DNA from: Closterium sp. NIES-65 | Lineage: Eukaryota; Streptophyta; Zygnematophyceae; Desmidiales; Closteriaceae | NCBI GenBank assembly: GCA_948144175.1 | Contig: CANXME010000202.1 | Location: forward strand, 1,823,253-1,887,252 | Direction of reading: 5' to 3' | Length of the DNA stretch: 64,000 bases | Shown here: in pieces, positions 13,901 through 38,611 of the stretch | How the letters are laid out: every line of letters begins with the position of its first letter | Position numbering within the stretch: position 1 is the first letter of the stretch | The notes under the pieces: model-generated | The model's input: the letters and a program-made list of their open reading frames with translations, nothing else | What the model was told of the DNA's origin: nothing | Database searches by the model: none | Made by a program: the position numbers and the translations under genes

Positions 13901-13914
13901 TGCTCACCTCTTGA
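7990..13914 (+). pseudogene. gag-pol: Copia B gag-pol, nearly full length
   Basis: One frame of about 1975 codons is broken only by TGA at 8923 (in the poly-Gly linker) and TAA at 10093 (before the integrase core). Order: Gag (from ATG 7990); poly-Gly linker (about 8800-9020); a Cys/His motif C-X13-C-X3-H-X4-C; aspartic protease with DSGA near residue 520; integrase HHCC then DDE (MDVWG, SDRGGEF, NGIAERR); an EPGGA repeat linker (about 11080-11310); RT with YVDD at about residue 1648; RNase H ending with the AEANTADVFTKAL-type signature. The integrase-before-RT order is diagnostic of Ty1/copia. It is the best reference copy for A, C and D/E. Confidence 0.92.
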
Positions 13915-14126
13915 CCTTGCTTGTACTGTTACATATATATATATACCTGCTCTTGCTTGTCTAGCCTTATATATATATGTACTCTTGCATGTGAACTGGC
14001 CTTGTGGCCTTGAACTTGTGCTCGGAATGTCTGGTGACTTTGTGATCCACCCTGAGCTTGCTTTGCTTTGCTTTGCTTGACTGGTCTTGTGACCCCTTGT
14101 TCTCCCCCACTTTGCCTATGGGGGTG
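13915..14126 (+). other. Copia B 3' untranslated region and polypurine tract
   Basis: These 212 bp after the RNase H stop contain two short AT runs (about 13930-13945 and 13968-13978) and a CTTTG-type repeat. They end with CTATGGGGGTG, the plus-strand priming tract that directly precedes the LTR. The same tract, inverted, adjoins the LTRs of copia C (15903) and D (30812). Confidence 0.8.
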
Positions 14127-14246
14127 AGTGAGAACATATAGCTTGTGCATATTGTGTAGGCTATAGTGGGGTAGCGCATAATGGGTACAACCCAATTAGG
14201 GTTAGTACTTGAACTCAAGTCATTCATTCACGTTCTCATCTTCTCA
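14127..14246 (+). repeat. 3' LTR of composite copia A/B
   Basis: This roughly 120-bp LTR starts with a slightly worn AGTGAGAACAT in place of TGTCAGAACAT and ends TTCTCA. It is followed by the target duplication CATAG (14247-14251), after which the gypsy gag frame resumes. Stretches shared only with the LTR at 1523 mark it as A-type. Confidence 0.88.
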
Positions 14247-14251
14247 CATAG

Positions 14252-15772
14252 GAGTGGGACGCGGAAGAAGCTGAGAGGAACCAAGGGCTGCCGATCAAGG
14301 AGGCAGATGTGGATGATGAGAACGAAGTGCAGTCAGAGGGAACGGGCGAGGCGGAACCCGAGCCGACGGAAGAGAATGCGGGAGCAAGTCAGGCGGCGGT
14401 CGAGGACTGAAGGACCACGCTGCAGGAATCGCGTGGTCGAGACGGAAGCCGTGGGGAGGGACAGCGCGCAGAGGGCTCCACACGGCAGGAGCAAGGGGCA
14501 CCAAACAAGGGCGCTCGGGATGCACAAGCGCCGAGACCGCACGGTAAAGGAAGGGCGGAGCGGTCGCGCACGCCGGAAAGGGATCAGCACCACGGAGAAT
14601 GGCGCGTGGGCGATTTCCGCATGCATGTCAGGCGACAGGACTAGGAAGGCTGTAGCGGCCGCGGCACGCGTTCGCCGGGACGGCGCTAGGCGCGCGATGA
14701 CGAATGGAGGGATGAGCCGCGCTCACTCAGGCCGCAAGGGCGCCAAGAAGGGAGGCACGGGGAGGAGCGTGTGTCACGGGAGTGGCGTGGTCAGCAGCAA
14801 GGGGAGCGCAGCAGCACAATGCGCTCGTCGGGCAGGCCGAGTCAGCGAGCTCAGCGGGACAACGGCGGGTCCTGCTCGCCCGATTGGCGCCGCACGCGGA
14901 GAGGGGAGTACGGAGGGGAGAGGCACTCACTTGAACGCCGCCAGCAGTGGAGCAAGAGGGAAAACGCCTGGTCACCGTCGCCAGAAAGGCGGCCGCTGCA
15001 TGAGACTAGCAGGGAGGAGAGGCGGAAGGCGCGCGAACCGCCGACGCCACAATGGGGACGGGCGGAAGAGTGGGGAGGGCCAAGGGAGGGGTGCCACGAG
15101 TCAGGAGGGAGTCGTCAAGAGGGCAGAACGGAGGGCGGAACCCAGGCGCACGGAGCGGAGCGGGCACGGGAAGCCAGAAAAGGCATGCAGAGAGCGAGGG
15201 CGAGGGGAGCGGAGAGGGGTCGGCCAGGGGGAGCCAGTGAATCATGGGGAGAGGGGCGAAGGGGTGCCGCCACCACCCTGCGAGTGGATGTGCCCACCAG
15301 ATTCTCGGGCGACCAACGCGCGGGGCCTACCCTCAAGAACTATCTGATGCAGGTAGGGAATGTGCGGTACCACTCCGACCGGCACAACATGGACCTAGTG
15401 GACTTCTTTTTGAGCTTGCCGAACACACTGGAGGGAGAGGCCATGAGGATGAAGGAACTGTTGTGGAGAGCAGGGAGGTACGGGGAAGACCCCACGGAGG
15501 CATTTTTGGAGCGGCTGCAGCGGCAATTTTCAGGTCACACGGCGGAGCGGATAAGGGAATTCCAGAAATTCAGCAGGGGCCGGGCCGAGTCACTGTTGAC
15601 CTACTACAACAGACTGATTACTGTGGCAGAGGACGTGAGATGCACAGATAATAGTTTCTCATCAACAAGCTCCTGAAAAGCTTTGATGAGGGCTTAGGAG
15701 GTGGGCTGAGGATGAGAGTGTAAAGCTGGGCGAGGAGGCAATCCTGGAAGAGGTGTTCGATATGGCAGAGAG
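14252..15772 (+). pseudogene. gag: Gypsy gag, central part
   Basis: The gag frame interrupted at 1522 continues here in phase. First comes a long Arg/Glu/Gly-rich stretch (to about 15280) with TGA at 14408 and TAGs at 14642 and 14687. Next is a capsid-like region with VPTRFSGDQ, then LVDFFLSLPNTLEGEA, then AFLERLQRQF and LLTYYNRL, which reads as a retrotransposon gag domain. Small frameshifts follow near 15655 and 15722. The frame ends at copia C's target duplication (15773-15777). The gene continues at 22789. Confidence 0.78.
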
Positions 15773-15777
15773 GGTGG

Positions 15778-15902
15778 TGTGAAATAATGAGGAATGATTG
15801 ACTAGAAAATGAGTTTAGTACAAATATGTAACCCTAGGAAACTGTACCCCATAATGGCTACACCACTACAGCCTAGAAATACTATAGCATAAATGTTTGA
15901 CA
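15778..15902 (-). repeat. Copia C 3' LTR
   Basis: This 125-bp LTR reads on the reverse strand from TGTCAAACATT to TTTCACA. The polypurine tract (complement of CACCCCCATAG) adjoins it at 15903. Its partner is at 22659-22783. Confidence 0.92.
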
Positions 15903-16094
15903 CACCCCCATAGGCAAAGTGGGGGAGAACAAGAAGTCACAAGACCAGTCAAGCAAGGAAACCTCAAGGTGGATCACAACGTCACCACACATTCCGAGCA
16001 CAAGTTCAAGGCCACAAGGCCAGCTCACATGCAGGATTATAAATAAAGGTAAACAAGCAAGTGCAAGTATAAATAGATCACAGTATAAGCAAGG
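15903..16094 (-). other. Copia C 3' untranslated region
   Basis: About 190 bp lie between the RNase H stop and the LTR. On the reverse strand this stretch carries the same CTTG-rich sequence as the 3' untranslated region of copia B and ends in the polypurine tract. I see no gene in it. Confidence 0.7.
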
Positions 16095-19000
16095 TCAAGA
16101 AGTGAGCAAGTGAGGCCAAGTACGCACAAGACCTAGCATCGTACAAAAGCGCTGATGATCACAAGGCAGAAGTGCCTTGGTAAAGATATTAGCAGTGTTG
16201 GCCCGAGAGGCCACGTAAGCAAGGCGCGGCTGACCACGCTGCTGCAGCTCACGAGCAAGGAAGTAGCAAAGAGCAATGTGCTTCGTTCTGTGCTCCAGTC
16301 TCTGCTCCCGATACAAGGCCAGCATGCCCTTGTTGTCTACGTACAGAACTGGAGGAGAACAAGGCGGCTCTCCTAGGTCAGCAAGCTGGTAGGTGAGCCA
16401 GCGTAACTCCTGTGCAGCCATGGCCCCTGCGTAGATCTCGAAATCACAGCTGGAGCCAACAATAGAAGACGAGCGGGTAGACCGCCACGAAACAGAACCG
16501 GAACTAAGGCTGAAGGTGTAACCCTGTGACGACCGCTACGTAGCCAAGTCCTCAGCCCAAGAAGCGTCTGCGTGACCTATGAGGACCACTCGACGTCGCC
16601 CTCCAAGCACTAGCCCCATGCCCGACGTACTGCACAAGTAGCGCAACACTCTCTTTGCTGCAGCCATGTGCTCTGGTCGGTGTCTCCCAGGAGCAACATA
16701 GCGTGCCAAGATGCTAAAAGGGTATACAAGGTCAGGTCGAGAGCAAGTCATCAGGTATATGAGGCAGCCAACAAGCTCTGGGTACGGGCCATTCGGCTCT
16801 ACGGACTGATCCAAAGGCAGAGCTGAGAGCGAGTGGCGAGTAGACAGAGGAGTGGCCTGAGGCGAGGAGTACGTGAAGTCGAAGCGCTGAAGGACCTGCT
16901 GCACCATGTGTGACTGAGTCAAGGCAATGGTGCGCTGTGCTCTGTCCTTGGTGATCTGCAAGCCAAGGTAGCTACACAGTTCACCCAGGTCTGTGCACGT
17001 GTGTCTCTTTTGCAGCTCAGACTTCACGTGGGAGAGTACAGCAGTGTCAGCAGTAGCAAAGACCAAGTCGTCGACGTACACGAGGATGTAGAACGGCGGC
17101 AAAGAGGTGTTGGTGCGTAGAAACAGCGACGGGTTGACAGTAGAAGGAGCAAAGCCAAGAGCCGCAAGTGTAGTCCTCAGTGTATCATGCCACTCACGAG
17201 GCGGAGACCGTAGACTGGCGGCCGGAGGCTCCACTGGGTACCAGGAGGAAACGACCCAGTGAAGCCAGGTGGGCGGCGCAGCCAGATCTCCTCATGCAGG
17301 CTGCCCTGTAGGACAGCAGTGCTGAATTCAAGAGAGTAAAGCTTGTAGTCGCGCTGAGCGGCTATGTGCAGCAGCACCCGAAGAGTGGTCATCTTCAGGT
17401 CTGAAAGTAGTCAACTCCCTACCGCTGACTGAAGCCTCGAGCCACGTAACGCGCCTTGAAGACAGGCGGAGAACACGGCGGCCGCTTCACCCTGAAAATC
17501 CGCATGCCATTGATGATGTTCGCCCCAAATGGGGGAACCTCGTCGACGTAAGTGCCTGTGGACTTCCAGGAAGCCATCTCTGCGTCCATGGCTGACTGCC
17601 ACTGAGAGGAGTAGGGACCCTCTATCGCCTCTGCGTAAGAGCGCGGAGTCGGGATATCTAGTGCATCCGGGTCTCCCTTAGGGGCAATCAGAATGGACAC
17701 GAGATGAGGTAAAGCAGCACCGAAACACTAGAACTCCTCCTGTCTGTCCTCAAGGAAGTCCGTGCCAAGAGCACTCACCTCGACAGACGGAGGTCTGACA
17801 GACTCTGACTCAGCAACAAGACTAGCGGCATAGTCTAAACGACAGCGAGTAGCGAAGTCTACAAGCTCAGCAACTAGGGCATACGCAGCAGTGGGATACA
17901 TAGTGGAGAAATGGAAGGACGCAGTGCCATCTGGTGCGTGCCTGGGACTACAGGAGGACGCTGATGCGGAACACGACGACTAGTGCGAGCAACACGAACA
18001 GGCGACGCAGGACGAGACGCTGGCTCACGACGCTCAGCAAGACCTCTAGTAGGACTAGTGTAGGGAGAAGGAGCAGGCAGTGGGGAGGCGGGCTGCAACT
18101 GTGACTCAGACTGGACTGGCGGTGGACACTCTAAGAAAGGAGCAGGACCAGCAGAAGGCGGGAGACCAAAAACTTGCTCAAGGAGCGGAACGAAGTACGG
18201 CCGCGGCCGCGCAGCGCCTCCAGAACCAGCAGGTACAGCACCAGCACCCCCAGCGGCAACACCAGTGACAGTAGCACCCCCAATCTCCCGCAGCGCCAAC
18301 TCCAACACCCTCAGAAGCATCACCCTCAGAAGCACCTCCAGTGCCAACACCCCCAGCAGCTCCAGCTCCAGCAGCTCCAGAAGCACCTACCCTAGCAGCA
18401 CCGCCAGCTCTCGCACCGCCAGTAGCTCCAGCACAAGGTTCACCATCTGGCCCAGCAGCTCCAGTACCTCCAGTACGAGCACCTCCGGGACCCGTAGCAC
18501 AAGTACCCGCAGCAGTAGTAGAACCTCCAACTCCAGCATCACCTCCAGCTCCAGCAGCACGGCTCCAGTGTTGAGCAAACCACTTGGGCAGCTCCTATGG
18601 AGAGGGTAGCTCCGCCAGGACGAAGCACCCCAAGGACCTCCAGACCCAGTACCGCCAGACTCCACACGAGCAGGCCCAGCACCCTCAGGCTCCACACCCC
18701 CATTCGCAGCATCCCTAGGCACAGCACCCTCAGGCACAACGCCTCCAGGCACAGCACCCCCAGGCTCAGCACCTCTAGCAGCACCAGAATCAACAGCTAT
18801 CTCGACAGGCTTGAGTGTGTCTACCTGAGACACATCTGAAGGGGCAGGACCCTGAGGGGGAAGGGGGTCTACGGGGGGGGGGGGACCTGGAGCGAGGAAG
18901 AGCGGCGGCGGGGGAAGGGGTGCAGTGCGGTAGGGGAAGAGACGGTAGTAAGGAATCGACTCGTCAAACGTGACGTCCTGGGAGGACAGAACACGGCGCG

Positions 19001-21808
19001 AGGTGGGGTGGTAAAACTGCAAACCGGGCGCGTCAGGGGGGAAGCCAAGGAAGACGCACAGCACGGGGGGACAGCTTGTCCGCAGACAAGTCGCGGACAA
19101 AAGCCCGAGATCCCCAGACACAAAACGCAGACGCATCGCCAACCTTCCCCGTCCACCGCAGAGTAGGGGAGGTCTCCGGCAAGGAGACCCGGGGCTGAAG
19201 GTTCATCTGATGCGCCGCGTACTGAACCGCGAATGGCCACAGAAAATGGGGAGCAGCCGCATGGATCATGGACGTACGAGCGACGTCCATGACCATGCCA
19301 ATGCGGCGCTCAGCAGTCCCATTTTGCTGTGGAGAGGCCGAAAGCGTGAACGTCTGGCGGATGCTCCGTGCACGACAGAAGGCTCGCAGAAGTGGAAAGG
19401 AAAACTCTCTGCCTCTGTCGGAGTGCAGCCGCAGAACAGGAAAGTCCGAGCCAAAACTCTCTCTGAGCTGGAGACGAGCTGCGCGGATCTAGTCGATCAA
19501 CACCTCAGTGACCTCACCCTTGCTGCGCAAGGGGAAGACTGTGGTGTAACGTGAGTAGTCGTCAACTTCCAGCAGGAAGTAACGCTCATGACCATGTTCA
19601 CGGACGCGGGCGGGGCCCCACACGTCCAGGTGAAGCGTCAGCAGCGGAGCCTCTGTCGGAGGAAACTCGGAGGAGTGAGGAGCGGCATGCTGCCGCCCCT
19701 CGACGCAGGGAACGTAGGTACGAGCAGGCCTCGGAGGAAGAGGAGAGAGGGACCGGGGGAGACCAGAGACAAGGATACGGGAGGCGATGCCTCGAAGACG
19801 AGGCAGGGAGGGGTGACGAAGGCGGTGGTGCCAGAGGTGAGTCTGGTGAGACAGGAGACGACACGAGCACGGGGCAGACTCAGGACCAGACCTGGACGCT
19901 GTAGCAAACACCTAACACGACGCAGCTACCTGACCAGACGCAGCAACCGGAGGAGCCTCAGTAGTCAGTGTGTACAGGCTTGACCCCGGGTGACGGGTAA
20001 ACGTGGCCAAGTGTCGGCCCGTCCAAGCACACGTACAGTAGGTCACTCGCTGACTCGCAGGAGTGAACTGGTCAACCACCCCATCCTGTGGATCAAAACC
20101 ACTCACCAAGTTTGTAGAGAATGAGGGGAGGTAAAGAACTGACAGGGTTCCAGAAGGGGCCGCCGGACACGCTAAGACAGTGGAGAAGTGGGCAAGGACA
20201 GGACCCCCAGAGGGGTCTGCCAGGGAGACCGCAACCGACCGACTAAGCGGCGTGAGTGTGGTGCGGTCTCGAAAGAAGGAGCGGGAAGCACCCGAGTCAA
20301 GGGTGAAGGTGTGGAAGGCATGAGCCAACGTGGTACCTGAGAGAGCTGAGTCACCAGCACCTGGGGCAGCAGACGTACCAGCACCTAGAGCAGTAGCCTC
20401 ACCAGCACCTAGAGCAGCAGCCTCAATGCCCGGGTCAGGCGGAACACACAGGTAACAGTCACCCTCATCACTAGTAGACACAACATACTTGGCAGCAAGA
20501 ATAGCATCATAATCAAGATCAAAGATAGCAACCCCTGACCTAAGCAGCTCGGCCCAGCGAGGGATCTCAGTGGCGTCAGGGAACTGGAGATGCCAGGCGT
20601 CCGTCAGGCGGCCGAAGCAGCGTTGGGTGGTGTGCGGGCCACCGCACGGCTCAGTGGTGTGCGGGTCGCCGGTACGCAGGACGTAGGCACAGGGACCAAC
20701 ACCCCCACCTCGCTGACGCGTAGCGTACCACTCACGAAGCTGCTGAGGGGGGGGGGGGTCTCACGAGTGCGCTGCTACTGCTCGTGCTGACCACCACCGA
20801 AGCCTCCCCGCTGCACAGAGCCACCCCGATCAGCTCCACCGCCGCCGCCGCCAACGCCGCCACCGCCGCCTCCTCCGCTCCCACCGCCACCGCCGCCTCC
20901 GCCTCCACCGCCGCCACCGAAGCCCCCACCCCCGCCACCACTCCCACCGCCACCCCCAGACCCTCCGCCACCTCCACCGCCACCTCCACCGCTCCCGCCA
21001 GCTCCTCCAGCTTCCTTGCTCCCCTTGCCCTTGCCGTTGCGGCGTCTCCCGCTAGGGGCAGACGCAGCGCCGACCAACTCGGTGCCAACGAGGTTGACCG
21101 CAGCACCAGAGGCAACAGAGGGCAAAAGGGGGGAGGGGGAGCACCCCTCAAAGAAGGGGGTACGAGGGTCACCACGAGAGGCTCCTACAGCGACTATACT
21201 CTTCTCAGCTGCCAGGAGGCGCTCCTCGAGGAGGTCAACGGTGAGTGTGGTGGGGCAAACTGAGAGGAAGTGGTCCCTGACCGAGCCAAGGGAGTCAGGG
21301 AGCCGGGTGACTAGGTAGTAGAGGGTGATGTAAATGGGGGGGGGGGATTCTTGGCGCAAAACTTAGCAGGAAGCGCAGCGCGGTAGCGGGTGTCACTAGT
21401 GCGAAGGTGCGTAGTGAGATCAGCGACTGTGGGAAAGGCGGCGAGGTCAGGGAATAGGTACGGCAGCATGATGTGACTAAGGGCAGCAGTGGCAAGGGAA
21501 GAGTAGCGTGCAACTATAGCGTCGTACAAGGTCTTAGCACTCTTGTACTTACTAAAGTGCGCGCGCTCAGTGGACGGCAAGTGACTACGCACAGCAAGTC
21601 GGGCAGCAGCATCGCGTGTGGCCCACCGTGAGCGAATAGTACTGTCAGCATCGGCACCAGGGGCAGTAGAGGCGCCAGACGTGAGATCAAACAGTGAGAG
21701 ACCATCTTTTTTATCGCACTGCAGGAAAAGCTGTAGATCATCGACCCAGACCTCAAAGTTGACAGCCCGACCCTCGGCATCAAAGGTGAGAACACTAGGG
21801 GTAGCCAT
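16095..21808 (-). pseudogene. gag-pol: Copia C gag-pol
   Basis: The start codon is at 21808 (MATPSVL). A poly-C tract (about 21337-21347) shifts the frame inside Gag. Then follow a poly-Gly linker (about 20830-21005), a C-X13-C-X3-H-X4-C motif, a protease with DSGA, integrase (HHCC; SDRGREF; NGTAERR), a linker, RT with YVDD, and RNase H ending at 16095. Six TAG stops stand at 20775, 19912, 19489, 17728, 17419 and 16536. Compared with copia B, five replace CAG and the one at 19489 replaces TGG. Further frameshifts lie near 19060, 18600 and 17210, and a short deletion lies near 17400. Confidence 0.9.
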
Positions 21809-22658
21809 GACAGCAGCAGTAGCAGGCTAGCTATAGCAGGCTAGCAGTAGCTCAGCACGAGAGGCGCGGCTCGGCGGTGCTCTTACCAGGGGTGGGAGGG
21901 GAGGGCCGAGGCGCGCCGGGAGGGACAGGGCCGCGACAAGGCGGTAGTGGAGTGCCGCTCCTCGGCTGCAGGGCAGGGTCGCCTCGGCGGCGGCGGCTGT
22001 CACGGCAGTGGCAGCGGCGGTTGTCCTAGCAGGAGCGGCGGCGGCTGTCACGGCAGCAGCGGCGGTGGCGACCGGTCGTAGAAGAACCAGCAGAGGCAGC
22101 AGGCGCGACGGCAGCTGCTGCTGGGGTGGCGACGGCTGGGCGGCAGGGCCGTGAAGAGCCGGGGAGGGGCCGCGAAGGGACCGCGACGAGCCGCGAAGGA
22201 GCCGTGGAGGGGCCGTGAAGGAGCCGCGAGGGGCCGCGAAGGGCCGCGGAGGGGCCGCAAAGGGGACGCTAAGGGCGGCGAAGGGGCCGACCAGGGGCCA
22301 CAAGGGGCCGTGAAGGGGCCGCGAAGGGCGGCGACGGGGCCGAGAAGGGGCCGCGAGGGGCTGCGAAGGGGCTGCGAGGGGCCGCGAGGGGCCACGAAGG
22401 GCCATGAGAGGGGCCACGAAGGGCCGCGCAGGGGCCGCAAGGGAGCCGCGAAGGGGCCGCGGAGGGCCGTGAGAGGGGCCGCGAAGGGGCCTTAAGAGGG
22501 CGCGACGGGCCGCTAAGGGCAGGGGACGTGACGGTAGAGCAGGCACACGGGGCGCGACTAGGGCAGGCGCGAAGCGCGCTCCGGGCAGGTAAAAAAAAAA
22601 ATTCGTTTTAGTGGTGGGCCCTAGGAAACATTCCCACTAGGGAACCTGCTCTATACCA
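21809..22658 (-). other. Copia C primer site and GC-rich leader
   Basis: The reverse-strand primer site (22645-22658; TGGTATAGAGCAGG) adjoins the 5' LTR. The leader that follows has an A/T run (about 22590-22602) and about 550 bp of imperfect repeats of the type GGGGCCGCGAAGG as read on the forward strand. It is like the A and B leaders, but its repeat unit is different. Its open frames are low-complexity Pro/Arg and are not called. Confidence 0.75.
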
Positions 22659-22783
22659 TGTGAAATAATGAGGAATGATTGACTAGGAAATGAGTTTGGT
22701 ACAAATATGTAACCCTAGGAAAATGTACCCCATATTGTCTACCCCACTACAGCCTAGAAAGACTAAAGCATAAATGTTTGACA
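22659..22783 (-). repeat. Copia C 5' LTR
   Basis: This 125-bp LTR pairs with 15778-15902. It is followed by the target duplication GGTGG at 22784-22788, where the gypsy gag frame resumes. Confidence 0.92.
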
Positions 22784-22788
22784 GGTGG

Positions 22789-24323
22789 AGCTCGCACAGA
22801 GGAAATACGAGGCTTATCTCCCCAGGCCGGCAGAGAGAAGCCGTGTTGGTGTAAGGGCCTAATGAACTCAAGCTATTAAGACTTTATCACACTTAAAACC
22901 TCTCCTCGGGGTCACCTCCAAGGGTCCTTGGGTGCCTGGTACAAGACCAGCCCCTATCATTGGGTCCGAGTTTGTAGAGAGAGGGATCAAGAGGGACTTA
23001 GTCAAAACAGCAAGAGTACCTTGAACGTCGCGCAGCGTATCGTGCAGACCGTCGATCGGATTAAGCTGAGAATTTCCTATATCGAAGCTCACTCTAAGAG
23101 CTTTAAAATAAGCCAAGTTGCCTCGCGAAAAGTTCTGCCATTACGAAGTTATGGCTCGGACAGCGTTAGCCTAGCGTTGGAGTGCTAGCGTACTAGCGTT
23201 GACTCGGGTAGCATTCCGCCGTCGCACCGCATAGAAAAGAAATTCCAGCAAGGAAGGAATTCGCTTGAATCAATTTCACTATATTCAGGTACAAACAGAG
23301 AAGGAATAAATAGCTCTAGCTAGCAAGGACCTTGGGAATCAACCTGGGAACAACCAGGGATGATCCCAAATAATTCCAAGCAACAGAACCAACCTGGCTT
23401 GACAAAATAGCAGGTGATAGGTTGGTGAACAACCTCTGGTTCTGTTTTTCCAACCTGGGGAAACAACAACCAGGTTCAGGTCCTAAAAACAGAACCTGTT
23501 TTGTCTTTGCCCAACCAGCCAAATGCTGGTTCCGCTGGTTTCCCCTGGCCCTGTAGCATGCAGATACAGACAAACATCCAACCTTCACCTAAATTGTACC
23601 CCTATAGTGCCTGCCCTGCTACACTATAGTCAACCAAACAAAACAGTACAATTTCGAGTTGGATAGAACTGAATCTGCGCAATCAAGTAAGTTGAACCGC
23701 AAAGCTTCCATCTTGGGTTCCTTTGCGAGCTCGTCCTTTCTGCTTGTACTGTTCATAGCGCGTACAATGTTATGCCGAAGCGCACATTTTGCGAGTACCT
23801 GCAAATGCTTCAAGCGAAAATTGCGAAAGCAAACAAACACACAAACATACCATTCACACGCAAATGCATTCGCACACGCATACTCGTACAAACAGACGGC
23901 AGGATGTCGTGCAATGTGAATTTGCACCCAACAAGCCGGAGGCCAACATGGGCGGCAGCAATAATACTGGAAGGGGGAGGGAGGACGGATGGACGAGGGG
24001 AGTCAGGGAGTGACACCAGGACATGTCACAGGTGTGGGCCGCCAGGGCACCTACGCAGGGACTGCAAGAACGGTGACGGGTGTGGGAAGCCAGGGCACAG
24101 GAAGCGGGAGTGCCCAGATGTAGCCAGGTGTGAAATCTGCAAGAAGTGGGGGCATGAGGCGAAGGATTGCTACCAGAGAGAAGGGGGAATTAGGAGGCAT
24201 CCAGAGGAGCTGCAGCAGCAGATTAGTAGGTTGCAGGCACAGCTCTTGGCGACCAGGCTAAGAGGGGAGGCAGAGGCAGGGATGTACGCTCTCAGGAAGG
24301 GGAGGAGGTGGAGCAGGACGTGA
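22789..24323 (+). pseudogene. gag: Gypsy gag C-terminus with zinc knuckles
   Basis: Two coding pieces, 22789-22838 and 23939-24323, flank the solo LTR and join in frame when one AGCCG copy is removed. The second piece has the nucleocapsid knuckles: CHRC-GPPG-H-LRRD-C, then one of the same spacing that lacks its first Cys (GDGC-GKPG-H-RKRE-C), then CEIC-KKWG-H-EAKD-C. Knuckles of this kind bind the element RNA during packaging. The frame ends at a TGA at 24321, probably after a small indel, before the protease. Confidence 0.85.
22844..23933 (-). repeat. Solo LTR of the G/H/L copia family
   Basis: This is a single 1090-bp LTR, TGTTGG...CCAACA, in reverse orientation. It is flanked by the perfect 5-bp duplication AGCCG (22839-22843 and 23934-23938) and has no internal sequence. 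Recombination between two LTRs normally leaves such a scar. It is nearly the same as the LTRs at 46603, 51211 and 62037. The gypsy gag frame reads through once it is removed. Confidence 0.95.
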
Positions 24324-24415: not shown

Positions 24416-24802
24416 TTGAAGGGAGAGAAGCCAGCCGAGCCAGCCCTGAAGCGAGCCCCTGCACGCCATCCCCAAGAGAGGCTGGCGTGCCAGACCTTGG
24501 TGCTACTGCTGGAGAAGGGAGCCATGGAAGTGGAGGGAGAGAAGGTTAAGACAGCCATCATAGACACGGGGCCACAGAGTGTGATGTTGGGCAGAGGGAT
24601 GGCTCAAAGGCTAAGGGTTGCTGGCGCTGGAGAGGCATGTGGCAAAGGGGATGTTGGTAATGATGGCGGAAGGGGGGGAACCGAAGTGGATGCCATGCAC
24701 CCGAACGCCTATACAAGTGACGCTGATGCCGGGGGGGGGGAGCATGAGACCAAAATCTGCATAAAGTGTGGGATTTCTGAGTCGGAAGACTTTGAGTGCT
24801 AG
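24416..24802 (+). pseudogene. pol: Gypsy aspartic protease region
   Basis: The frame carries IIDTGPQSVML (about 24555-24590), with the catalytic Asp-Thr-Gly of a retropepsin, between the gag knuckles and the methyltransferase. This enzyme would cut the polyprotein. A single-base loss near 24795 puts the following part (GTELVYAVGM) in another frame, so the 24800 stop is not a natural end. Low similarity in the surrounding residues prevents exact domain limits. Confidence 0.75.
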
Positions 24803-26052
24803 TAGGCACCGAGCTGGTGTATGCGGTAGGGATGACAATATGCACGTGGATGGAGAAAGTCGAGTTTAGGACGAGGTACTGGAAAAGGGAGGGGCCACGG
24901 GGAGAGCTGCCAGTGCGGTTCGTGAAGGTGGAGCCGAAGAGGGCATACCAGGCCGTGGGGGGACTGCTGCCTGGGGAGCAGGGGGGGACACCAGGGTTGG
25001 GAGGAGCACCAAGAATGAAGGGGATGGACAAGCCACAGCAGCAGAGTGATTGGCAGCAGCCCATCTACCTGGTGGAGCTGTTTGGGGGGATAGGGGCAGG
25101 GCTGTCCGCGTTGGTGAGGAACGGGATAGCGGTGAGGAGGTGGACGTATGTGGAGAAGGAACCCGGGGCTAGGAGGATGGCAGAGCATCATGCCTCGAAG
25201 CTGCAAGCGGAGTTTCCAGAACTGCTGAGTGAGAGGGTGATTAGAGAAGCAATGGGAGGGACGATCCACGATGTGAAGGAGATAAGGGAGGCGGAGGTGG
25301 CGCGCTGGGGGCAAGTGGATCTGCTGGTAGCAGGGTGGGAATGCCAAGGGGTGCCGTGGGCAGGCAAGGGGAAGGGAGAGGAAGATCACATGACAAGGCT
25401 AATGGAGGAGCTATTCCGAATCCTGGAGTGGCTGTAGGAGAGGTAGGGCTGGGTGGCATACTTGCTAGAAAACCTGGACCTGGAGGGAGACCGCAGAGAG
25501 CCGATCCGACTGGTGAGAGACGGAATCAGGGGGCAGCTGGGAGAAAGAATGAGCTGTGATGCGGCCAGAATGGGGTCTTATGCACGCATTCTCAGAATGT
25601 ACTGGCAGAATGTGGTCCCTACCGTAAAGCTGCAAGCAGAGGTGGATGGGGTGAGGCGAGCAGCAGAGATGAAGGTGCAGGACATCCTGGCGCCAGGGCG
25701 TACCCCAGCACCGGTGTGTCGCAAGAGCTACAGCAGGCATGAGCAATGCAACCAAGTAGGGCAGGAGAGGCGAGCACTGCCCACTCTGGTGGCATATGTG
25801 GGGCCAGCAGGGTACAAGTGGGAAGCAGGGAAGCCCGGACCGGGGATGGTGTATGATCACGGGAGACGGAAATGGGAGGAGCCCACGGCACTCGAGCGGG
25901 AGTTGGCTATGGGGTACGGAGAAGATGCAACAGTAGCACCCGGGGCGAATGAGGCGGACAAGAGGAGGGCTCTAGGGAATGCAATGGATGGCCATGTGGT
26001 GAGGTGGCTGATTCAGCGGATGTGGCGAGAGACGGTCGTTAGCTGGGGGTAG
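24796..26052 (+). pseudogene. C5-cytosine DNA methyltransferase domain inside gypsy pol
   Basis: Between protease and RT stands a complete-looking cytosine-5 methyltransferase fold. SAM-binding motif I is VELFGGIGAG (about 25069-25098), followed by YVEKEP. Motif IV is GWECQGVPWAG with the catalytic Cys at 25342-25344; the usual Pro before it is Glu. Motif VI reads ENL (25468-25476; usually ENV). A motif VIII-like RILRMYWQN and motif X ALGNAMDGHVV (about 25963-25998) follow. The order I to X is the standard, non-permuted one, and the spacing looks DNMT3-like. TAG stops at 25435, 25444 and 26050 break one continuous frame. The domain would methylate DNA, perhaps the element's own cDNA; this copy cannot be made whole without readthrough. 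Confidence 0.88.
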
Positions 26053-27614
26053 GAAGAAAGGAAGGGAGGAACGGAGGCAGAGCCGCGGGGAGCATGGAGC
26101 TGCCAAGAGAAGGAAGAGGAGAGCTGGGTGGTGGGGGAAGCGATGAGCAAGGAAGGAAAGGATGCCATGTAGGAGCTGCTGGCTAGGCACAGGAAGTGTT
26201 TCGCTTTCACCATGCAGGAATTGGGGAGGTGCAAGGTGAAGGAGATGGAGCTGAAGCTAAGCAGCACCGAACCAGTATTCCACCGCAGGAGGAAGATGCC
26301 GCCCGGGGGGAATCTGTAAGGAGAAGATGAAGGAGCTGCTGGAAGCGGGACTGATTAGGAGATCAGAATCCGAATACACCACACCAACAGTGGTGGCAGC
26401 CAGGCGAGACCTGACAGGGGAAGTGTTGAGCAGGAGGATGTGCCGAGACTACAGGGCACTTAACAAAATCACCATAGCAGACAGGTACCCGATGCCGATG
26501 GCGGAAGAGGTCTTTGACAAGTTAGCGGAGGGGGTGTTCTTCATTACGCTGGACCTGAGGCAAGGGTTCAACGAGATCAAGATCCGGGAGGAGGACATCA
26601 AGAAGGCGGCTTTTCATGGGCCAGACGGGCTATATGAGTGGCTGTACATGCCATTTGGACTGCGGAACGCATCAGCAGTGTTCCAGAGGTCATGGACAGC
26701 GTGTTGCGGGGAGTGGTGGGCGCGGCCTGCTACATTGATGATGTGGTAATCTTCAGCACCTACAGGATGTGGAGAAGACCCTGGCGGGGATTGAAGAAGC
26801 AGGACTCACCTGCCACCCGAAGAAGTGCAGATGGGGGGAACAAACAATGCAGTATCTGGGGTACGAGGTAAAAGGGGGACACATAGGGATCCAAGAGGCC
26901 AAGGTAGAAGTCCTGGACAGACTGAGGGAGCGGAAGGACAAGTCAGGGCTGAGAGCAGTGCTGGGCTTCCTGAGCTACTACAGGCGGTTTGTGACCAACG
27001 TCAGCAAGAGAGTGGCGGTGCTGAATGGGCTGCTGCTGGAGGACAAGGTGTGGGAGTGGGGAGAAGCACAGAAGGGAGCACTGCAGGACCTGATGGCAGC
27101 AGTGAAGACCGCAACAGTACTCAATTTGCTCGCCGCCGATCACCCCTTTACGCTCTACACCGACTAGAGCAGCCAAGGGATGGGGGGGATACTCTGCCAG
27201 GATGTGGAAGGAGAGGAGAAAGTAGTGGCATGTGCGAGCAGGAGCTGCAACTCAGCGGATGCACAATACAGCTCCTACATAGGAGAAGGGTTGGCGGCCG
27301 TGTGGGCAGTGGGGCATTTCAGGGTGTACTTGCAGGGGAGGGAATTCACCTTAGTAACAGACCACCAGCCTCTGTCTTGGCTGATGACAACCCCGGGGTT
27401 GACGGGCAGGAATGCAAGATGGGCAATGAAGCTGCAGGAGTATGACTTCTAAATCAAGCATAGGCCAGGAAAGACATTGCAGCACGTGGATGGCCTCTCT
27501 CGGAACCCCCCACCGCCAGAGCCCACTGTGACCTTGACACTGCTGGCAAGATTAGTGGAGCAGAATGGGGCCAAGGAAGGGAAGGGGCCAGCAGATATTT
27601 GGGAAGATGTATAG
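26053..27614 (+). pseudogene. pol: Gypsy reverse transcriptase and RNase H
   Basis: RT begins with ELLARHRKCFAF (after TAG 26170), continues with CRDYRALNK, LDLRQGF, MPFGLRNA and YIDD (about 26732-26743), then YLGY and the thumb/connection region. RNase H has YTD at about 27157, then DAQYSSYIGE and VTDHQPLSWL. Frameshifts occur near 26315 (G run), 26688 and 26760. Stops are TAG 27165, TAA 27450 and TAG 27612. The YIDD box and the position before integrase are typical of Ty3/gypsy. Confidence 0.92.
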
Positions 27615-28826: not shown

Positions 28827-28842
28827 GAGGGGGCAATGGGTA

Positions 28843-28984
28843 AGTGAGGCTATGCAACACGGAGAAGGAAGAAATAGGAGAGACAGCATGAGAAGAACAG
28901 GTGCAGGGAGAAGAGCAGGTGCAGGATGAAGAGCAGGTGCATGAAGAAGGGCAGGGGCTGAGAGGAGGAAGGTTCTCCGACAGC
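28843..28984 (+). repeat. Gypsy subterminal region, copy 1, with polypurine tract
   Basis: This is a purine-rich 142-bp stretch between pol and the 3' LTR. It repeats an AGAAG/AGCAGGTGCA theme and includes GAGAGGAGGAAGG about 12 nt before the LTR, the likely polypurine tract. The same stretch is repeated right after the 3' LTR (29400-29539). Confidence 0.8.
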
Positions 28985-29399
28985 TGTCACCACATATGCA
29001 CTTAATGCATATGCAATAACAGTAGAATGATGGTATAGTGTGGGCTTCACACTAAGACCATAGGAAGACTACATAGGAATTAGAGTTTAAGTAATAGGTG
29101 TAGCATGTAGCGAAGTTACTGTTAGGAGCGAGGGTGTAGAAGGGGGGAAACAGGATAAGAGCGGTTGAGATAAAAAGGGGGAAAGACTCCAAAGGGTGAA
29201 ATGTGAAACCAATCAACCCCAACCCCGAGCCGCACATTTGGAAATGTGCAGCCAGCGGTGGGGTAAGGTCACTCACCTCCAACCCATCGATGCTTTCTCG
29301 TTATTCTCTCGAACTAGTGAAAGTTGTTGTCTCGCGCTCTAGCACACTGCAGCACGGCACTAAGAGGGAACCTACGGGGTGAGGTACGTAGCTCTTTCA
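28985..29399 (+). repeat. Gypsy 3' LTR
   Basis: This 415-bp partner of 630-1047 runs from TGTCACC to CTCTTTCA. In the segment matching the self-priming stretch (29289 onward) it lacks three bases (one GTT) that the 5' LTR has. About 20 substitutions separate the two LTRs. Confidence 0.9.
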
Positions 29400-29539
29400 A
29401 GTGAGGCTATGCAACACAGAGAAGGAAGAAACAGGAGAGACAGAATGAGAAGAACAGGTGCAGGGAGAAGAGCAAGTGCAGGATGAAGAGCAGGTGCATG
29501 AAGAAGAGCAAGGGCTGAGAGGAGGAAGGTTCTCCAACA
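29400..29539 (+). repeat. Gypsy subterminal region, copy 2, outside the 3' LTR
   Basis: This is a direct copy of 28843-28984 with few changes. It starts right after the 3' LTR and ends within a few bases of where the next LTR would begin (TTCTCCAACA against TTCTCCGACAGC). It is then followed by satellite. The 3' LTR therefore sits between two copies of the same internal stretch. Confidence 0.85.
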
Positions 29540-30684
29540 TGGCCTGTTAGCCTAATGGACGGCTTGGACCAACTGGCCTGGTTGTCCAATAGATCGGTTG
29601 GACCTACTGGCCTATTGGTCCAATGGACTGCTTTGAACTCGCATGTTGGTCCAATGGACCGGTTGGACCAACTGGTCTATCGGTCCATTTGATCTCCTCT
29701 ACCAACCAGACTGTTGTTCAAATCGTCTGGTTGGACCAACTAGCCGGTTGGCCCAATAGAACGGTCAAACAAACTGTCCCGTTGGTCCATAATTTTGGTT
29801 GGACCAACAAAACTGTTGGTCCAATGCACGGGTTGGACCAATTGGCTTATTGGTCTGGTGAATGGATCGGAACAACTGGGGAGTTGGTCCAATAGATCGG
29901 TTGCACCAACTGGCCTGTAGGTCCAATGGACCAGCTGGACAAACTGGTATGTTGGTTGGATAGACCGGTCGGGCCAACTGGCTTATTTCTTCAATGGACC
30001 AATCGGACCAACTGGCCTGGTGGTCCAATCGACCAGTTGTACCCGTTGGACTGTTGGTCGAATGGATCAGTTTGACCTAAAGGACTGTTGGTCCAATGAA
30101 TGGGTTGGGCCAACTATTCTATTGTTTCAATGGACGAGTTAAACCAACTGACCTCTTGGTCTAATGAGATTGGTTGGATCTGTTGGTTTAATAGACGGAT
30201 AGGGCCAACTGACCTGTTGATCGAATTGAGCTAGTTAGACCGACTGACCTGTTAGTCCAATGGACCAGTTGGACCAACTTGCCTGTTGGTTAAATTGATC
30301 AAGTCGACCAACTGGCCCACTAGAAGGATTGGACCAACTGGTCTGTTCGTCCACTGGATGGACTAGACCAACTGGCCAGTCGGTGCAACTAGACCAGTTG
30401 GACAAAATTGGTATGTTGGTCTAATGGACCGGTTGGACCAACTGACCTGTTGGTCCAATGGACCGGCAGGACCATGGTCCAATAAACAGGTTGGACGGAC
30501 TGGTCTGTTGCTCCAGTGTACCGGTTGGACCAACTGGGGTGTTGGTCCAGTGGACCTGCTGGACCAACAGACCTGTTGGCCCAATTGACCGGTTGAACCA
30601 ACTTGCCTGTTGGTCCAATCGACCAGCTCGACCAACTGGCCGAATGGTCCACTAGAAGGATTGGACCAACTAGTCTGTGGGTCC
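29540..30684. repeat. 34-bp satellite array, right piece
   Basis: The same 34-bp unit and orientation as 1-629 occur here, about 33 units, diverged. It ends where the copia D LTR begins. The open frames on both strands follow from the stop-free unit. Confidence 0.92.
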
Positions 30685-30811
30685 TGTTAGAATGAAGAAG
30701 TGATTGGACTGGAAACAAGTGAGAGTACAAATACCTAACCCAAGAATAATATACCCCCTAAAGGCTAACCCACTGTAGCCTACACAAATACAACATATAT
30801 GATGTTTGACA
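30685..30811 (-). repeat. Copia D/E 3' LTR
   Basis: On the reverse strand it runs from TGTCAAACATC to TTCTAACA and adjoins the polypurine tract at 30812-30822. The 30823-31044 stretch is 3' untranslated sequence with AGCAAAGCAA repeats like that of copia B and C. Confidence 0.88.
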
Positions 30812-33436: not shown

Positions 33437-36400
33437 ATGGTCGACCCCGTAGTTGATGCGGGTGTAGCTGACACTTTGGAGGCACGTTTGGCTGACGCGA
33501 GGAGACGCCACGCGAATGGCGAGTACGGGACGATCCCCTTAGTGATCGCCGAGTTGGGCATCCGGTCGCAGTGGGCGACGGAACACCCTTCCCGTCCTGC
33601 TTCTCCTCGACCGGTGCGCAACGAAGGTGGCGTCGACGACGAGGTCGACGGTGGTGCACGAGTCAGCGGCAGCGAAGGCACGAGGCATAGAGGAGTGATC
33701 AAGGTCGACGGTGGTGTCGACGGAATCCAGGCGCGAGTGCAGCGGTCGACGGCGGCTGCAGGCAGCTCGCACGCCGACGTCGATGTTCGACGTCGCTCTC
33801 CTCTACGAAGTGGTGGTGGGCTCTCGGCGACGACGCATGTGACGGCGGGCGGGATTGCACCGGCGTATGGCTATTTCAAGTTTTCGCCGGATCGGATCAC
33901 CGTCGCTCCGCTGCAAGGTCGACGGGACCTCATCACCTGGAGGGAGTCGATCGAACCTCAGCTGGAGGTCGCCGGGCTTAAGGGCTTCGCCGACGGCACC
34001 GTGCCAATTCCGCCCGAGGAGGATGTCGGGCTGCGCGGGGAGTTTCGTTCTGCTCACCTGCTCACCTTCATGGTCATCTCGAGGTGCTGCTCGCCGGTGG
34101 TACAGCTGGCGCTCAGGAGCTGTCGAGAGCGACTGGATGCTGGTCACCAGGCATGGCGCTTCATCATATCGACGTACCAGGTCACGGACGACCTGTAGAT
34201 CGGGCAGCTGGAGGAGAAGATGACCCACATTCGGATGGGCGAGCAGGAGTCGGCGACGGATTACTGCTACCGTGCTCGACGGATCCTGGCTGAAATGCGA
34301 ATGGCAGGCGCCGAATACTCGACGGCGTCTTACATCACCCACATCGTCAAGGGCTTGCCGCGCAGCTACAATCTCATGAAGAGGATGATGATGGTGCCCG
34401 GCACGCGTGAGTCCCTCGACGAAGACTCCATCACCAGCTACATTCTCCAGGATGAGGCGATGCTGGAGGCAGAGCAGCCCACGGAGTTCCTTCCGCAGGC
34501 GAGTTACGCTGCACCGACGAAGCCGAATACACAGCGGGAGCAGCGCAGGAAGCCGGGCGGAAGTGGTAGCGGAGGTGGGCGGTCGACGAAGGACGTCGAC
34601 GAAACGAGGTCGACGCGGGACAAGGGTCGACGTGGTGGTGGTCGACGGCGAGAGTGCTGGGTCTGCGGCGATCCCGACCATCTCTCCTTCGAGTGCCCTG
34701 ACCGCGATGAGAGCAACGAGGACGACAACAAGGAAGGCCGCGGTCGATCGACCAGTCGTCGCACCCGTCAAGCTGAGAAGCCGCGCAAGGAGAAGCAAGC
34801 GTCGAAGAAAACGCCCTTGACGAAGGACGTCGACAGCTCCAGCGGCAAGAGCCGAGGCGACGGGGAGGCGTCGTGCTCGATGGTCGGCGTAGTGGAGCCG
34901 ACGGTCTCGCTAGCACCGGAGGCTGGCGAGGACTTCCAGGCGGTGGCAGCAGCTGTGCAGGCCAACCCGATGGCGGTGCTGCTCGACAGCGGGTGCTCCC
35001 ACCACCTGATGGGGACGAAATCGGTCTTCGTTGACATGGGGCCGAGCGATGGGGTGAAGCATGTGCGTGGGTTCAACGGGGCATTGCAGCCTGTCAAGGG
35101 TCGCGGAACCGTCGCTCTGCAAGGGGAGGCCGGGAAGCGAGTCCTCATCCCCGACGTACTCTACGTTCCAGGCGTACAGGCAAACCTGTTGTCTGCTGGC
35201 CAGCTGAAGGAGAGCGGCGTGCTACTGCAGGGCGATGGCGATGAGATGCTGCTCGTCGACGCGACTGGAGAGGTGCTTGGTCGAGCACGCTACACCGGAC
35301 GAGTCCTCTGCACCGACCTTCGCCCCTGCCCGACGCAGTTGCAGTCGACCGAGGTGGTGGCTCTGCGGACGATCACCTCGGCGACGAAGACGACCCCCAA
35401 TAGGATGCATGCGCGGCTTGCCCACGTCAACGTCGACACGATCAAGAGCTCGGCGAAGCATGATGTGGCTACTGGGCTCGACATCACGTTGTCAACCGGA
35501 GCAGACCCGCCATGTGTCTCGTGCGTCGGAGGAAAGCTGGCGCGGCACACCTTCCCCGCCAAGGGCTCGGATGCAGCGGAGGCGCTGGCTGTCGTGCACA
35601 TTGACTTGTGCGGGCCATTTCGGGTGGCTGCCAAGGATGGCAGCTTGTACTTCCTACTGCTGAAGGATCGCCATACTCGATTTGTATGGGCGATGCCGGT
35701 CGCTAAGAAGAGCGACGTGCTGCGGGAGTTCGAGAAGTGGCTGGTGCTCGTGGAACGACAGACGAAGAAGTCGGTTCTGTCGCTTCGCTCCGATCGAGGG
35801 GGGGAATTCCTCGGGAAGGCGTTCACCGACTTCGTCGACGGGAAGGGCATCGTCCACGACCTGACGTGCCCCTACACTCCGCAGCAGAATGGCATGGCCG
35901 AGCGGGAGATGCGTACGGCCGTCGAGTCCGTGCGGACGATGTTGCTGCACATGGGCGTGCAGCACCATTGGTGGCACCTGGCTCTACGACAAGCTGTCTG
36001 GGTGCGCAACTGCTTGGAGCGGTCGACGACGCCGCCGGGGACGACTCCGTACCAGCTGCTGACCGGACAGAAGCCCGACCTTACGCTGGCGCGGGTGTGG
36101 GGCTGCATGGTGCAGTTCATGGTTCCCGAACAGCAACGAGGTGGAAAGCTGGCGCCGAAGGCTCGCTGGGGACTTCACCTGGGTGTGTCGCCAGCGAGCA
36201 AGGGCTGGGAGGTGCTCGACCTGACCGACAACAAGATGGTCACGTCGGTCGAGGTGATCTTCTATGAGACGCTGTCGCTGGAGGTGTGGAAGGCGAAGTA
36301 TGGGCCGGCGTCGGAGCGGACGCAGGCGCACCCGCCGACGGACACCTCGACGGCGACGGTTCCCCTGCTCGCCGAAGCCGACGAGCCTGCTGATGAAGAT

Positions 36401-38611
36401 GCTGTGGAGGTCCTTCCACCTCCCCCTGTTCTTGCTCCTCCGTCTCCCGTCACCGATCTGCCTGCGCCGACACCTGTGTCGGCCACCGACGATGAGGGGA
36501 GCCTGGAGGCGTCGCGTGTGGCGCAGGCCAGTGGCATCGCCGGCGGACGACAAGGCGCCAAGCTCGACGACTACGATGGAAAGCCGTCGAAGACAGGAGA
36601 GCCGGTCGAAGAGGAGCCATCGGCAGGGGTACACTCGATAGGGGAGCGGCAACCGGAGCGGTCGACAGGAGAATTGTCGAAGGTAGCAGCAGAGGAACAG
36701 CCGGTCGAAGGGTCGAAGCAGCTGGTCGACGACGTTCTAGTTGAAACGAAAGGGGAGCTATCGGCGGGTGAGGAGTCCACCGACAGCGACGTGTTGGAAG
36801 TGCCGATCACGAAGCCTGAGCTGCGACGCTCAGGTCGAGCTCGACGGCCGCCGGAGCGGTTGAGCTTTCACGCCTGCTTACCGCCAGCTGCCTTCACCAC
36901 GGTGTACGACGAGGTCGACGACGACCTGCTGTACGACGATGCCGAGGAGGATGAAGACCTGTCGGAGCTCGACCCTGACGTGCATGCCGACCCCGAACAC
37001 CGCTGGGACATCGCCACGATGACGGTGAAGGAGGCGCTGTCGAGCTGGAAGGGCGAGGCGGTGAAGGCCGCCATGGAAGAAGAAATCCGTAGCCTCATCG
37101 CTATGGGGACTTGGGAGCTGGTCGAACGCCCACGCGGGGTGAACATTATGAAGAACCAATGGGTGCTGACGACCAAGTACCGCATCGACGACACCGTCGA
37201 GCGCGAGAAGGCGAGGCTGGTCGTAAAGGGCTTCACGCAGGTGTACGGCGCCGACTACGACGAGACGTACTCGCCGGTGAGCAGCTACGTCACGCTGAGG
37301 ATCTTCCTCAGCATAGTCGCCATCCTCGACCTCAACCTGATGCAGCTCGACATGAAGAACGCTTTCCTGCAGAGCAAGCTCGACAGAGTGCTCTACATTT
37401 ACCAGCCGGACCACTTCAACGACGGGACCGGCCGGGTGTGTAAGCTGCTGAAAAGCCTCTACGGGCTGAAGCAGTCGCCGCTGCTGTGGTACAGGGCTCT
37501 TGACGGTGTGCTGCTGGGCGCTGGCTGGAAGAAGAGCCAGGTCGACGAGGCGCTCTACTTCAAGACCGGCGATGACGGTGTGACCTGCTGGGTCTTGGTC
37601 TACGTCGACGACCTGCTCGCCGCTAGCTGCAGCACCGCGATGCTGAAGGAGCTGAAGGAGCTGCTGGAGGCCGCCTTCGAGCTGCGTGAGATCTCGCCGG
37701 TGGAAAAGTACCTTGGGCTGGAGATCGTGCGGGACAGGCCGGCCAGGAAGTTGTGGCTGCACCAGCAGGGCTACGTCGACAAGCTGCGCAGGCGCTTCGT
37801 CGACGAGGAGCTAGGCGGTCGAGTCCCGAAGACGCCGGTCTCGGTCGACGCCTACGTTCATTTGACGTTCAACGACGAGGAGGCTCAGGAGCGCGAAGAG
37901 GAGGAGTACCGCCAGAAGGTCGGCTCGCTGCAGTTCGCGGCGAGGACGACGAGGCCGGACATTGCGTTCGCCTGCAGCAAGCTGGAGAGCGGCCTCACGG
38001 TGAGGAGCGATCAGCATTGGCGTGAGGTCAACCGTTGCCTCGCCTTCCTCGCCGACACCCGCGACACCGCCCTGGAGTTCGGCGGTGGACCAGAATCGTT
38101 GGAGCTGATTGGCTACGTCGACGCCGACGACGCGGGCGACAAGCAGAACCGGACGAGCACGGGAGGCTACGTGTTCGTCCACGGAGGGGCCGCAGTCTCC
38201 TGGTCGAGCTCGCGCATCAAGTGCGCGACATTATCATCGACCGAGTCGGAGTACGTGGCGGCCACGGATGCCGGCAAGGAGGGGCGTCGACTTCGCTTCC
38301 TCCTTGCGGAATTCAAGCTGCTCGACGCTGGAAAGCCGACCATCCTCCGCGTCGACAACAAGTCGGCAATCACGGTCGCTGAGGGCTTGGGGCTGACGGG
38401 CAACCTCAAGCACATGGAGCGACGCTACGCCTGGCTGCAGCACATGGTGAGGCGCGGGAAATTTGTGCTGAACTACATCCCTATCACCGAGCAGCCGGCG
38501 GATTTCCTGACGAAGGCGCTGCATTTTCCGGCTTTCAACCGGTGCTCTGTCGCCATCGGCCAAGTTCGCCTGGTGGACGTCGGCGACGGCGATGACGAGG
38601 TGCAGCAGTAG
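33437..38611 (+). CDS. gag-pol: Copia F gag-pol polyprotein (one internal TAG)
   Basis: The ATG at 33437 opens a 1724-codon frame interrupted only by TAG at codon 254 (34196-34198). Gag occupies about residues 1-400 and ends with a CX2CX4HX4C zinc knuckle (CWVC-GDPD-H-LSFE-C, about 408-421). The protease has DSG at 517-519. Integrase has HIDLCG, RSDRGGEF and NGMAERE as the DDE triad. RT has YVDD at about 1389. RNase H ends with ITEQPADFLTKAL. All catalytic residues I can check are present. The TAG lies inside Gag, so without readthrough or suppression only a truncated Gag is made. It reads DDL-stop-IGQLEEK, where a Gln (CAG) would fit. Confidence 0.93.

Follow-up and report, generated by a model that had tools for sequence, protein, structure and literature searches.

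A Ty3/Gypsy family of Closterium that very probably carries a Dnmt3-class DNA methyltransferase within its Gag-Pol frame

In a 64,000-nucleotide stretch of the genome of Closterium sp. NIES-65 (contig CANXME010000202.1, positions 1,823,253 to 1,887,252; hereafter the window), we characterized a degraded retrotransposon that, judged from its sequence and those of its relatives, very probably belongs to a Ty3/Gypsy family whose single Gag-Pol frame includes a cytosine-5 DNA methyltransferase (C5-DNMT, or DNMT) of the Dnmt3 class. This arrangement is rare and was previously known from few algae; Closterium is part of the algal lineage that stands nearest to land plants, and the family looks recently active. 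A sequence-only reading of the window had proposed a C5-DNMT encoded within a Gypsy Pol, between the protease and reverse transcriptase (RT) domains, and this is borne out by the domain order of natural copies. It had also stated, correctly, that retrotransposon-encoded DNMTs are a class already described (de Mendoza 2018; PMC5890265).

Results

The DNMT domain and its genomic relatives

Motifs I, IV, VI, VIII and X of a C5-DNMT follow each other in canonical order and in one frame in the window, as first noted. The span initially assigned to the domain, 24796-26052, does contain the DNMT; its limits required correction, the DNMT proper covering 25048-26067 and positions 24796-25047 corresponding to the protease C-terminus and a linker. 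Indeed, when a natural-copy DNMT was mapped by tblastn, residues 1-340 of 340 aligned in one frame to 25048-26067 with 83% identity. The window frame is interrupted by three stops (25435, 25444 and 26050), and the two open pieces of the original span were searched separately. The first half (24796-25434) matched PF00145 with E=6.8e-4 and 19.6 bits, below the Pfam cut-off of 22, and the second half gave no match in the Pfam search. Against the PDB, the 27 matches of the first piece at E up to 1 were all DNMT3A, DNMT3B or DNMT3C (best E=0.0025). The Pfam assignment holds through the relatives, since PF00145 was matched by 6/6 related DNMT domains in one set and 11/11 in another, and a profile built from 11 retrotransposon DNMTs (retro-DNMTs) matched DNMT3A with E=2.2e-21.

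The genome (874,075,685 bases, 2,400 contigs) was searched using the first DNMT piece as query. Of 1,314 first-look candidates, 150 were scored, and the 150 matches listed, the window's own included, show 63-100% identity; the domain is thus not confined to one copy, and these matches, having been retrieved with the DNMT piece itself, give no fraction of related elements that lack it. Matched stretches were free of stops in 117 of the 150 (counted by hand; some matches are partial). All matches of the DNMT piece and of a DNMT-only profile that name an organism are from Closterium (NIES-53, -54, -64, -65, -67 and Naga37s-1). A longer DNMT-RT profile adds Closterium strain Yama58-4, via the RT side, and related DNMT domains are also present in metagenome proteins.

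A host gene lying beside a transposon was rejected as an explanation, because RT and the DNMT of natural copies are encoded in one frame. A window copy that is broken and, taken alone, falls below the Pfam cut-off would fit motifs arisen by chance or an artefact of assembly. However, the 150 scored genomic matches, the matches from further Closterium strains and from metagenomes, the profile matches of relatives, and the evidence from fold and selection given below make this exceedingly improbable, and we regard it as refuted.

Organization of the Gag-Pol frame

Natural copies with the DNMT in one open frame encode 2,316 (C387), 2,370 (C160), 2,463 (C741), 2,389 (C1886) and 2,379 (C2203) residues, in the order gag, protease, DNMT, RT, RNase H and integrase. 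Copy C741 was scanned with Pfam in five pieces, residues ~700-850 being in none of them. Its protease matched PF13975 below the cut-off (E=2.4e-4), its RT matched RVT_1 (E=9.8e-33), its RNase H matched RT_RNaseH (PF17917, E=1.6e-33) and its integrase matched Integrase_H2C2 (E=8.5e-19) and rve (E=1e-10); the first 700 residues had no Pfam match. The C-terminus of gag in the window copy displays CCHC zinc knuckles (PF00098, E=5e-8, in two stretches; frame 23691-24323). The order protease-RT-RNase H-integrase is that of Gypsy elements, and it is found here with a DDE integrase and with protease matches that lie below the curated cut-off. Neither PWWP nor ADD was matched in the scanned C741 pieces, a chromodomain was not matched in the 445-residue integrase piece of the one copy scanned, and a phage integrase (tyrosine recombinase) was not matched in the scanned pieces of one copy. 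The longest open frame around a DNMT match, among the matches listed, has 3,852 residues (G000:C948:7985-8620), and is possibly a fusion or a tandem element.

Catalytic motifs and relation to Dnmt3

Proline is the usual residue before the catalytic Cys in C5-methyltransferases, and the solved C5-methyltransferase chains that we compared also carry it. In the Closterium rows examined, motif IV reads W-E-C-Q-G, single variants aside (P0014 has D before the Cys). This replacement had been considered distinctive, and it is indeed typical of the Closterium rows, but it is shared with the metagenome relatives P0030 and P0077; P0029, P0031, P0044 and P0079 keep the usual P (W-P-C-Q). A branch with weak support (59/74) separates the rows that lack P from the others. 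The ENL of motif VI, also thought to set this branch apart, does not do so, as relatives show EHL, ENL, ENP, ENV and ENG. The catalytic Cys, the motif VI Glu and the motif VIII Arg do not vary among the 11 rows of alignment A3, whose identity with the first row goes down to 34%.

Profile comparison, Foldseek and VIA each put DNMT3 first among solved C5-methyltransferases, and the retro-DNMT profile is much closer to DNMT3 than to DNMT2. The fold work employed alignment A4 (22 rows), with the natural relative P0014, which has D before the Cys, as AlphaFold row. A DRM type was rejected, as motifs I to X are canonical and not rearranged; DRM chains align over query positions 9-138 only. In the best tree (21 retro-DNMTs; 10 of 22 IMG/VR loci), the retro-DNMT clade adjoins DNMT3A with support 94/86, with one Dnmt3 row only, and this placement is not starred.

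The DNMT could alternatively derive from a phage or bacterial-type enzyme and not from a host Dnmt3, since single family members match phage DNMT families (phrog_116, E=9e-16) and a grouping with the bacterial/phage-type P0055 was not rejected (p-AU 0.076). The position next to DNMT3A and the three rankings with DNMT3 first speak for a Dnmt3 origin, and we judge the phage or bacterial one unlikely. A search of phage records (10 of 62 records listed) and of IMG/VR (22 loci) provided distant phage enzymes only, with 23-45% identity among the matches listed; the occurrence of W-P-C-Q-G in the IMG/VR loci is partly an artefact of the search pattern.

Selection on the DNMT

Selection was analyzed by NG86 on 11 rows, which represent 10 distinct natural sequences (L003 and C1642 are one locus). 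Between lineages, the omega values of the DNMT (ratio of non-synonymous, dN, to synonymous, dS, divergence) range from 0.063 to 0.141, with dS mostly >1 and the pair C160-C741 saturated. Omega is 0.067 for C741-C1886, the cleanest pair (dN 0.031, dS 0.469). For RT, omega ranges from 0.027 to 0.053 (12 pairs with dS >0). In the youngest subfamily, the omega of the DNMT is 0.26-1.19, from few changes, as expected for recent, partly decaying copies. At the sequence level, the DNMT is thus a domain that has been kept for a long time, less strictly than RT.

These data also bear on the possibility that the domain is no longer a DNA methyltransferase, and serves Pol as a structural component or by binding nucleic acids, or else methylates RNA. 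Such a change would be in line with W-E-C-Q in place of P-C in the Closterium motif IV and with a DNMT that evolves faster than RT. It is improbable, however, for a domain whose three catalytic-motif residues are invariant in alignment A3, whose between-lineage omega lies well below 1 and whose profile is far nearer to DNMT3 than to DNMT2.

Split repeats, integration and age

Self-comparison of the copies revealed direct repeats arranged as A1 - coding - B1 - A2 - B2. We inspected 13 copies (10 from one set, the window copy and two more), and this split-repeat plan (A-coding-B-A-B) was present in 9/9 with both ends readable (C1642, C167, C387, C1871, C741, C1886, window, C2203 and C1634). Those left out of this count have one or both ends missing or unreadable: C106 still shows B1-A2-B2, C430 A1 only, and C1802 and C160 a partial A1 only. 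Outside A1 and B2, all nine are flanked by a perfect target duplication of 4 bp (CGGC, CAGC, GTCT, CTCG, ATAC, TCCT, TGGC in the window, CCTT and TCTG), the chance of any one 4-mer match being ~1 in 256. The termini are TGTCAC...CGACA in 8/9 copies, and the window copy ends in CAACA. At the internal B1/A2 junction (CCGACA-GC-TGTCAC), the two element ends are joined through GC, forming the palindrome GACAGCTGTC.

The family does not carry two plain long terminal repeats (LTRs) at its ends, the 3' end being B2 and not the end of A2. Within ~30 nt past A1, no TGG-type start of a tRNA primer-binding site was seen by eye in four copies of one subfamily. A-B-A-B repeats thus occur together with 4-bp duplications: the repeat plan is DIRS/PAT-like, whereas insertion follows the chemistry of a DDE integrase. 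Membership in DIRS/PAT was rejected on the presence of a DDE rve domain and of the 4-bp duplications. In one copy, A1 and A2 are identical at 380/380 positions and B1 and B2 at 85/85, and therefore the family moved very recently.

At least 3 of the 9 end-resolved copies lie inside tandem arrays, namely a 34-bp-type minisatellite (window, 626-629 and 29540-30690), a 71-bp array at C741 and a 117-bp array at C1886 (L025-L028 for the C741 and C1886 copies); the element may have a preference for satellite DNA.

CpG footprints

Four young copies form six non-independent pairs, in which sites with CpG in either copy account for 17-37 of 61-88 transitions (27-44%), compared to ~8-11% CpG positions in young copy C1642. 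This excess indicates that integrated copies are probably CG-methylated by some enzyme. In six long open reading frames (ORFs; C387, C160, C741, C1886, C2203 and C1634), the first 500 codons have codon-boundary CpG at 1.07-1.28 of expectation, whereas the values are 0.35-0.67 in 24/24 downstream segments, with similar GC content at third codon positions, and Arg codons show the same step; the 5' side looks like an unmethylated region. Among ORFs without DNMT that are copia-like by their YVDD motif only, 3/4 have CpG-poor halves and 1/4 does not, and the CpG loss is thus not ascribable to the element's own DNMT. A copia-type element at 34199-38611 of the window, with an unbroken frame of 1,470 residues, is CpG-undepleted (1.13 of expectation), unlike its neighbours.

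Both the transition excess of the young copies and the CpG-poor downstream segments would be compatible with a DNMT whose main targets are host chromatin or silenced copies, where it could dampen the element's own transcription or buffer the host, benign copies being favoured; dampening is offered as one option in PMC5890265. Nevertheless, host enzymes would yield the same pattern, CpG-poor halves also occur in the copia-like ORFs without DNMT, and the number of first-look candidates in the genome, of which 150 were scored, does not suggest strong self-restraint. We consider this function rather unlikely.

Map and decay of the window copy

The features of the window copy are as follows (window positions, strand in brackets).

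626-629 (+): left 4-bp target duplication TGGC; flank ...TGGC/TGTCACC, both flanks looking like the same 34-bp-type minisatellite
630-1046 (+): repeat A1, 5' terminal repeat, aligned by window A2; 393/414 identical
1047-1484 (+): 5' leader and gag start; element 1-866 maps to window 630-1484, 78%
1485-14297 (no strand): nested insertion(s), holding tandem ~5.4-kb copies at 1523-6884 and 6885-12184, 80% identical
14298-15777 (+): gag, middle; element 951-2399, 72%
15778-22783 (-): copia-type element nested in gag, type and strand by eye from minus-strand frames
22784-22843 (+): gag, short piece, from alignment to natural copies
22844-23933 (no strand): solo-LTR-like insertion TGTTGG...CCAACA; AGCCG on both flanks, missing from the duplicate copy C106
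23934-24323 (+): gag C-terminus with CCHC zinc knuckles
24416-24802 (+): aspartic protease region (IIDTGPQSVMLG); PF13650 E=0.011, below cut-off
24796-25047 (+): protease C-terminus and DNMT linker; residues 241-304 of the gag-protease piece map to 24796-24987
25048-26067 (+): C5-DNMT domain, Dnmt3-like, from natural-copy mapping, with the three stops given above
26263-26975 (+): RT, frameshifted; PF00078 E=1.2e-11, four pieces in three frames
26976-27605 (+): RNase H; 90% to natural copy C387, the same C741 piece matching PF17917
27615-28844 (+): integrase, H2C2 zinc-binding region and DDE core; PF00665 E=1e-9, PF17921 E=1.9e-7
28842-28982 (+): repeat B1, from repeat comparison; B1/B2 134/141 identical
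28985-29398 (+): repeat A2, following the B1/A2 junction
29399-29539 (+): repeat B2, element 3' end, from repeat comparison
29540-29543 (+): right 4-bp target duplication TGGC, matching the left one

The element thus extends from 630 to 29539, more than first proposed, contains nested insertions and lies inside the 34-bp-type minisatellite. The copy is dead, because its DNMT carries stops and its RT is spread over three frames, and it predates the eight other copies that were dated, as indicated by the A1/A2 and B1/B2 differences listed above versus 97.8-100% A1/A2 identity in those copies. The nested copia-type element is bounded by ~125-bp repeats (22659-22783 versus 15778-15902, 93.6%) and by a 5-bp duplication, with element positions 2395-2399 present on both sides.

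Copy C106 (G000:C106:1823656-1841655; L009, L010) matches the right part of the window element at 95% and its left neighbour at 90%. Since both are shared, C106 reads as a segmental duplication of the window, which fits the copy-number variation described in PMC10407611. C106 does not carry the solo-LTR-like insertion and represents a natural empty site. This ~1.09-kb repeat occurs four times in the window (22844-23933, 46603-47696, 51210-52294 and 62037-63127), the other three being 95-98% identical to the copy at 22844-23933.

Discussion

A possible role in replication

Our tentative proposal, which we find plausible though not quite probable on sequence grounds, is that the main function of the DNMT is to methylate the element's own complementary DNA (cDNA). 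The polyprotein would be cut by its own protease, and the DNMT would travel with RT and integrase in the particle. The B1-A2 block, in which the 3' end is joined to the 5' end via the GC of the palindrome, could serve as the template that restores both termini in reverse transcription. Ahead of integration or during it, the DNMT would methylate the double-stranded cDNA at cytosines, those in CG being the likeliest targets, the DDE integrase would then insert the element DNA, and the new copy would enter the nucleus pre-marked like native DNA. The idea of cDNA methylation was proposed for DIRS elements in PMC5890265.

A more specific and rather doubtful version combines two life cycles: reverse transcription would be of DIRS type, B1-A2 would restore and join the ends, the DDE integrase would open the palindrome and generate the 4-bp duplication, and a co-packaged Dnmt3 would methylate the same molecule. 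If this hybrid route were true, retroviral and DIRS replication would mark the extremes of a single continuum, and a DNMT tied to a joined or circular intermediate would explain its recurrence in SymbioDIRS, KnitGypsy and the Closterium element.

Several points weigh against this reading of the family. Compared within the same sequence pairs, the DNMT shows ~1.4-4.8 times less constraint than RT. In the putatively active enzyme of Closterium, E stands in place of the usual motif IV P, and no methylation was seen in yeast with the DNMT from Klebsormidium, a result considered inconclusive by its authors (PMC5890265). Some Closterium matches of the long profile cover the RT side only (e.g. P0103, P0107, P0112), and may be either gene-model fragments or relatives without DNMT, the latter arguing against a necessary role. 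The unstarred DNMT3A placement, the P0055 grouping and the CpG-poor copia-like ORFs, all described above, belong to the same side of the balance.

Comparison with known systems

Closterium belongs to the Zygnematophyceae, a streptophyte class other than that of Klebsormidium. The closest described system, KnitGypsy-Dnmt3 of Klebsormidium nitens, is, according to PMC5890265, an intronless Gypsy element with a Dnmt3-class, non-rearranged DNMT inside the Pol ORF, with the A-coding-B-A-B repeats of the DIRS structure, and with a DNMT that evolves under purifying selection (Ka/Ks below 0.2, against the between-lineage omega of 0.063-0.141 in Closterium). In comparison to this published description, Closterium has more copies, those of K. 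nitens being fewer than in Symbiodinium, and termini and 4-bp target duplications are shown for the Closterium family. A K. nitens homologue was sought in three protein searches, and none of the matches carried the name of that species.

SymbioDIRS-Dnmt3 and SymbioLINE-Dnmt of dinoflagellates are likewise retrotransposons with a C5-DNMT; SymbioDIRS has the same A-coding-B-A-B repeats, and its Dnmt3 methylated CG in yeast (PMC5890265). They employ a tyrosine recombinase or a long interspersed nuclear element (LINE) endonuclease, whereas the Closterium family has a DDE integrase and 4-bp target duplications. Among metagenome proteins, P0077 carries DNMT-RT-RNase H-integrase and P0079 DNMT-RT in one protein, and P0029 has a protease-like stretch before the DNMT, seen by eye and with no Pfam match. 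The three show 35-38% identity to the first A3 row, and P0079 and P0029 differ from Closterium in keeping P before the catalytic Cys. Animal DNMT3A and DNMT3B share fold and motif order with the Closterium DNMT and are its best structural and profile matches, but identity is ~18-24%, they have S-P-C-N where Closterium has W-E-C-Q, and the Closterium domain has ~17 extra residues between motifs I and IV.

In our literature search, which had subscription papers and supplements outside its scope, PMC5890265 was the sole work found that describes retrotransposon DNMTs. PMC12344493 (2025) cites this 2018 work and mentions, for streptophytes and dinoflagellates, families of the LTR Copia and DIRS types; the term methyltransferase does not occur in the accessible text of PMC10407611, nor do DNMT and retrotransposon in that of PMC11096116.

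Why a retrotransposon should carry the enzyme that its host uses for silencing is puzzling. The kind of element described here is already known; what its sequences add is a young, many-copy member in a second streptophyte class, with the mode of integration resolved at the sequence level. Because it occurs in a second streptophyte class and in metagenome hosts, the type is older or more mobile than the lone Klebsormidium case suggested. The family is many-copy, partly young, diverse and under selection, and it resides in a unicellular alga that is related to land plants and whose mating types are known, which makes self-methylation, host effects and a life cycle with split repeats and an integrase testable in Closterium.
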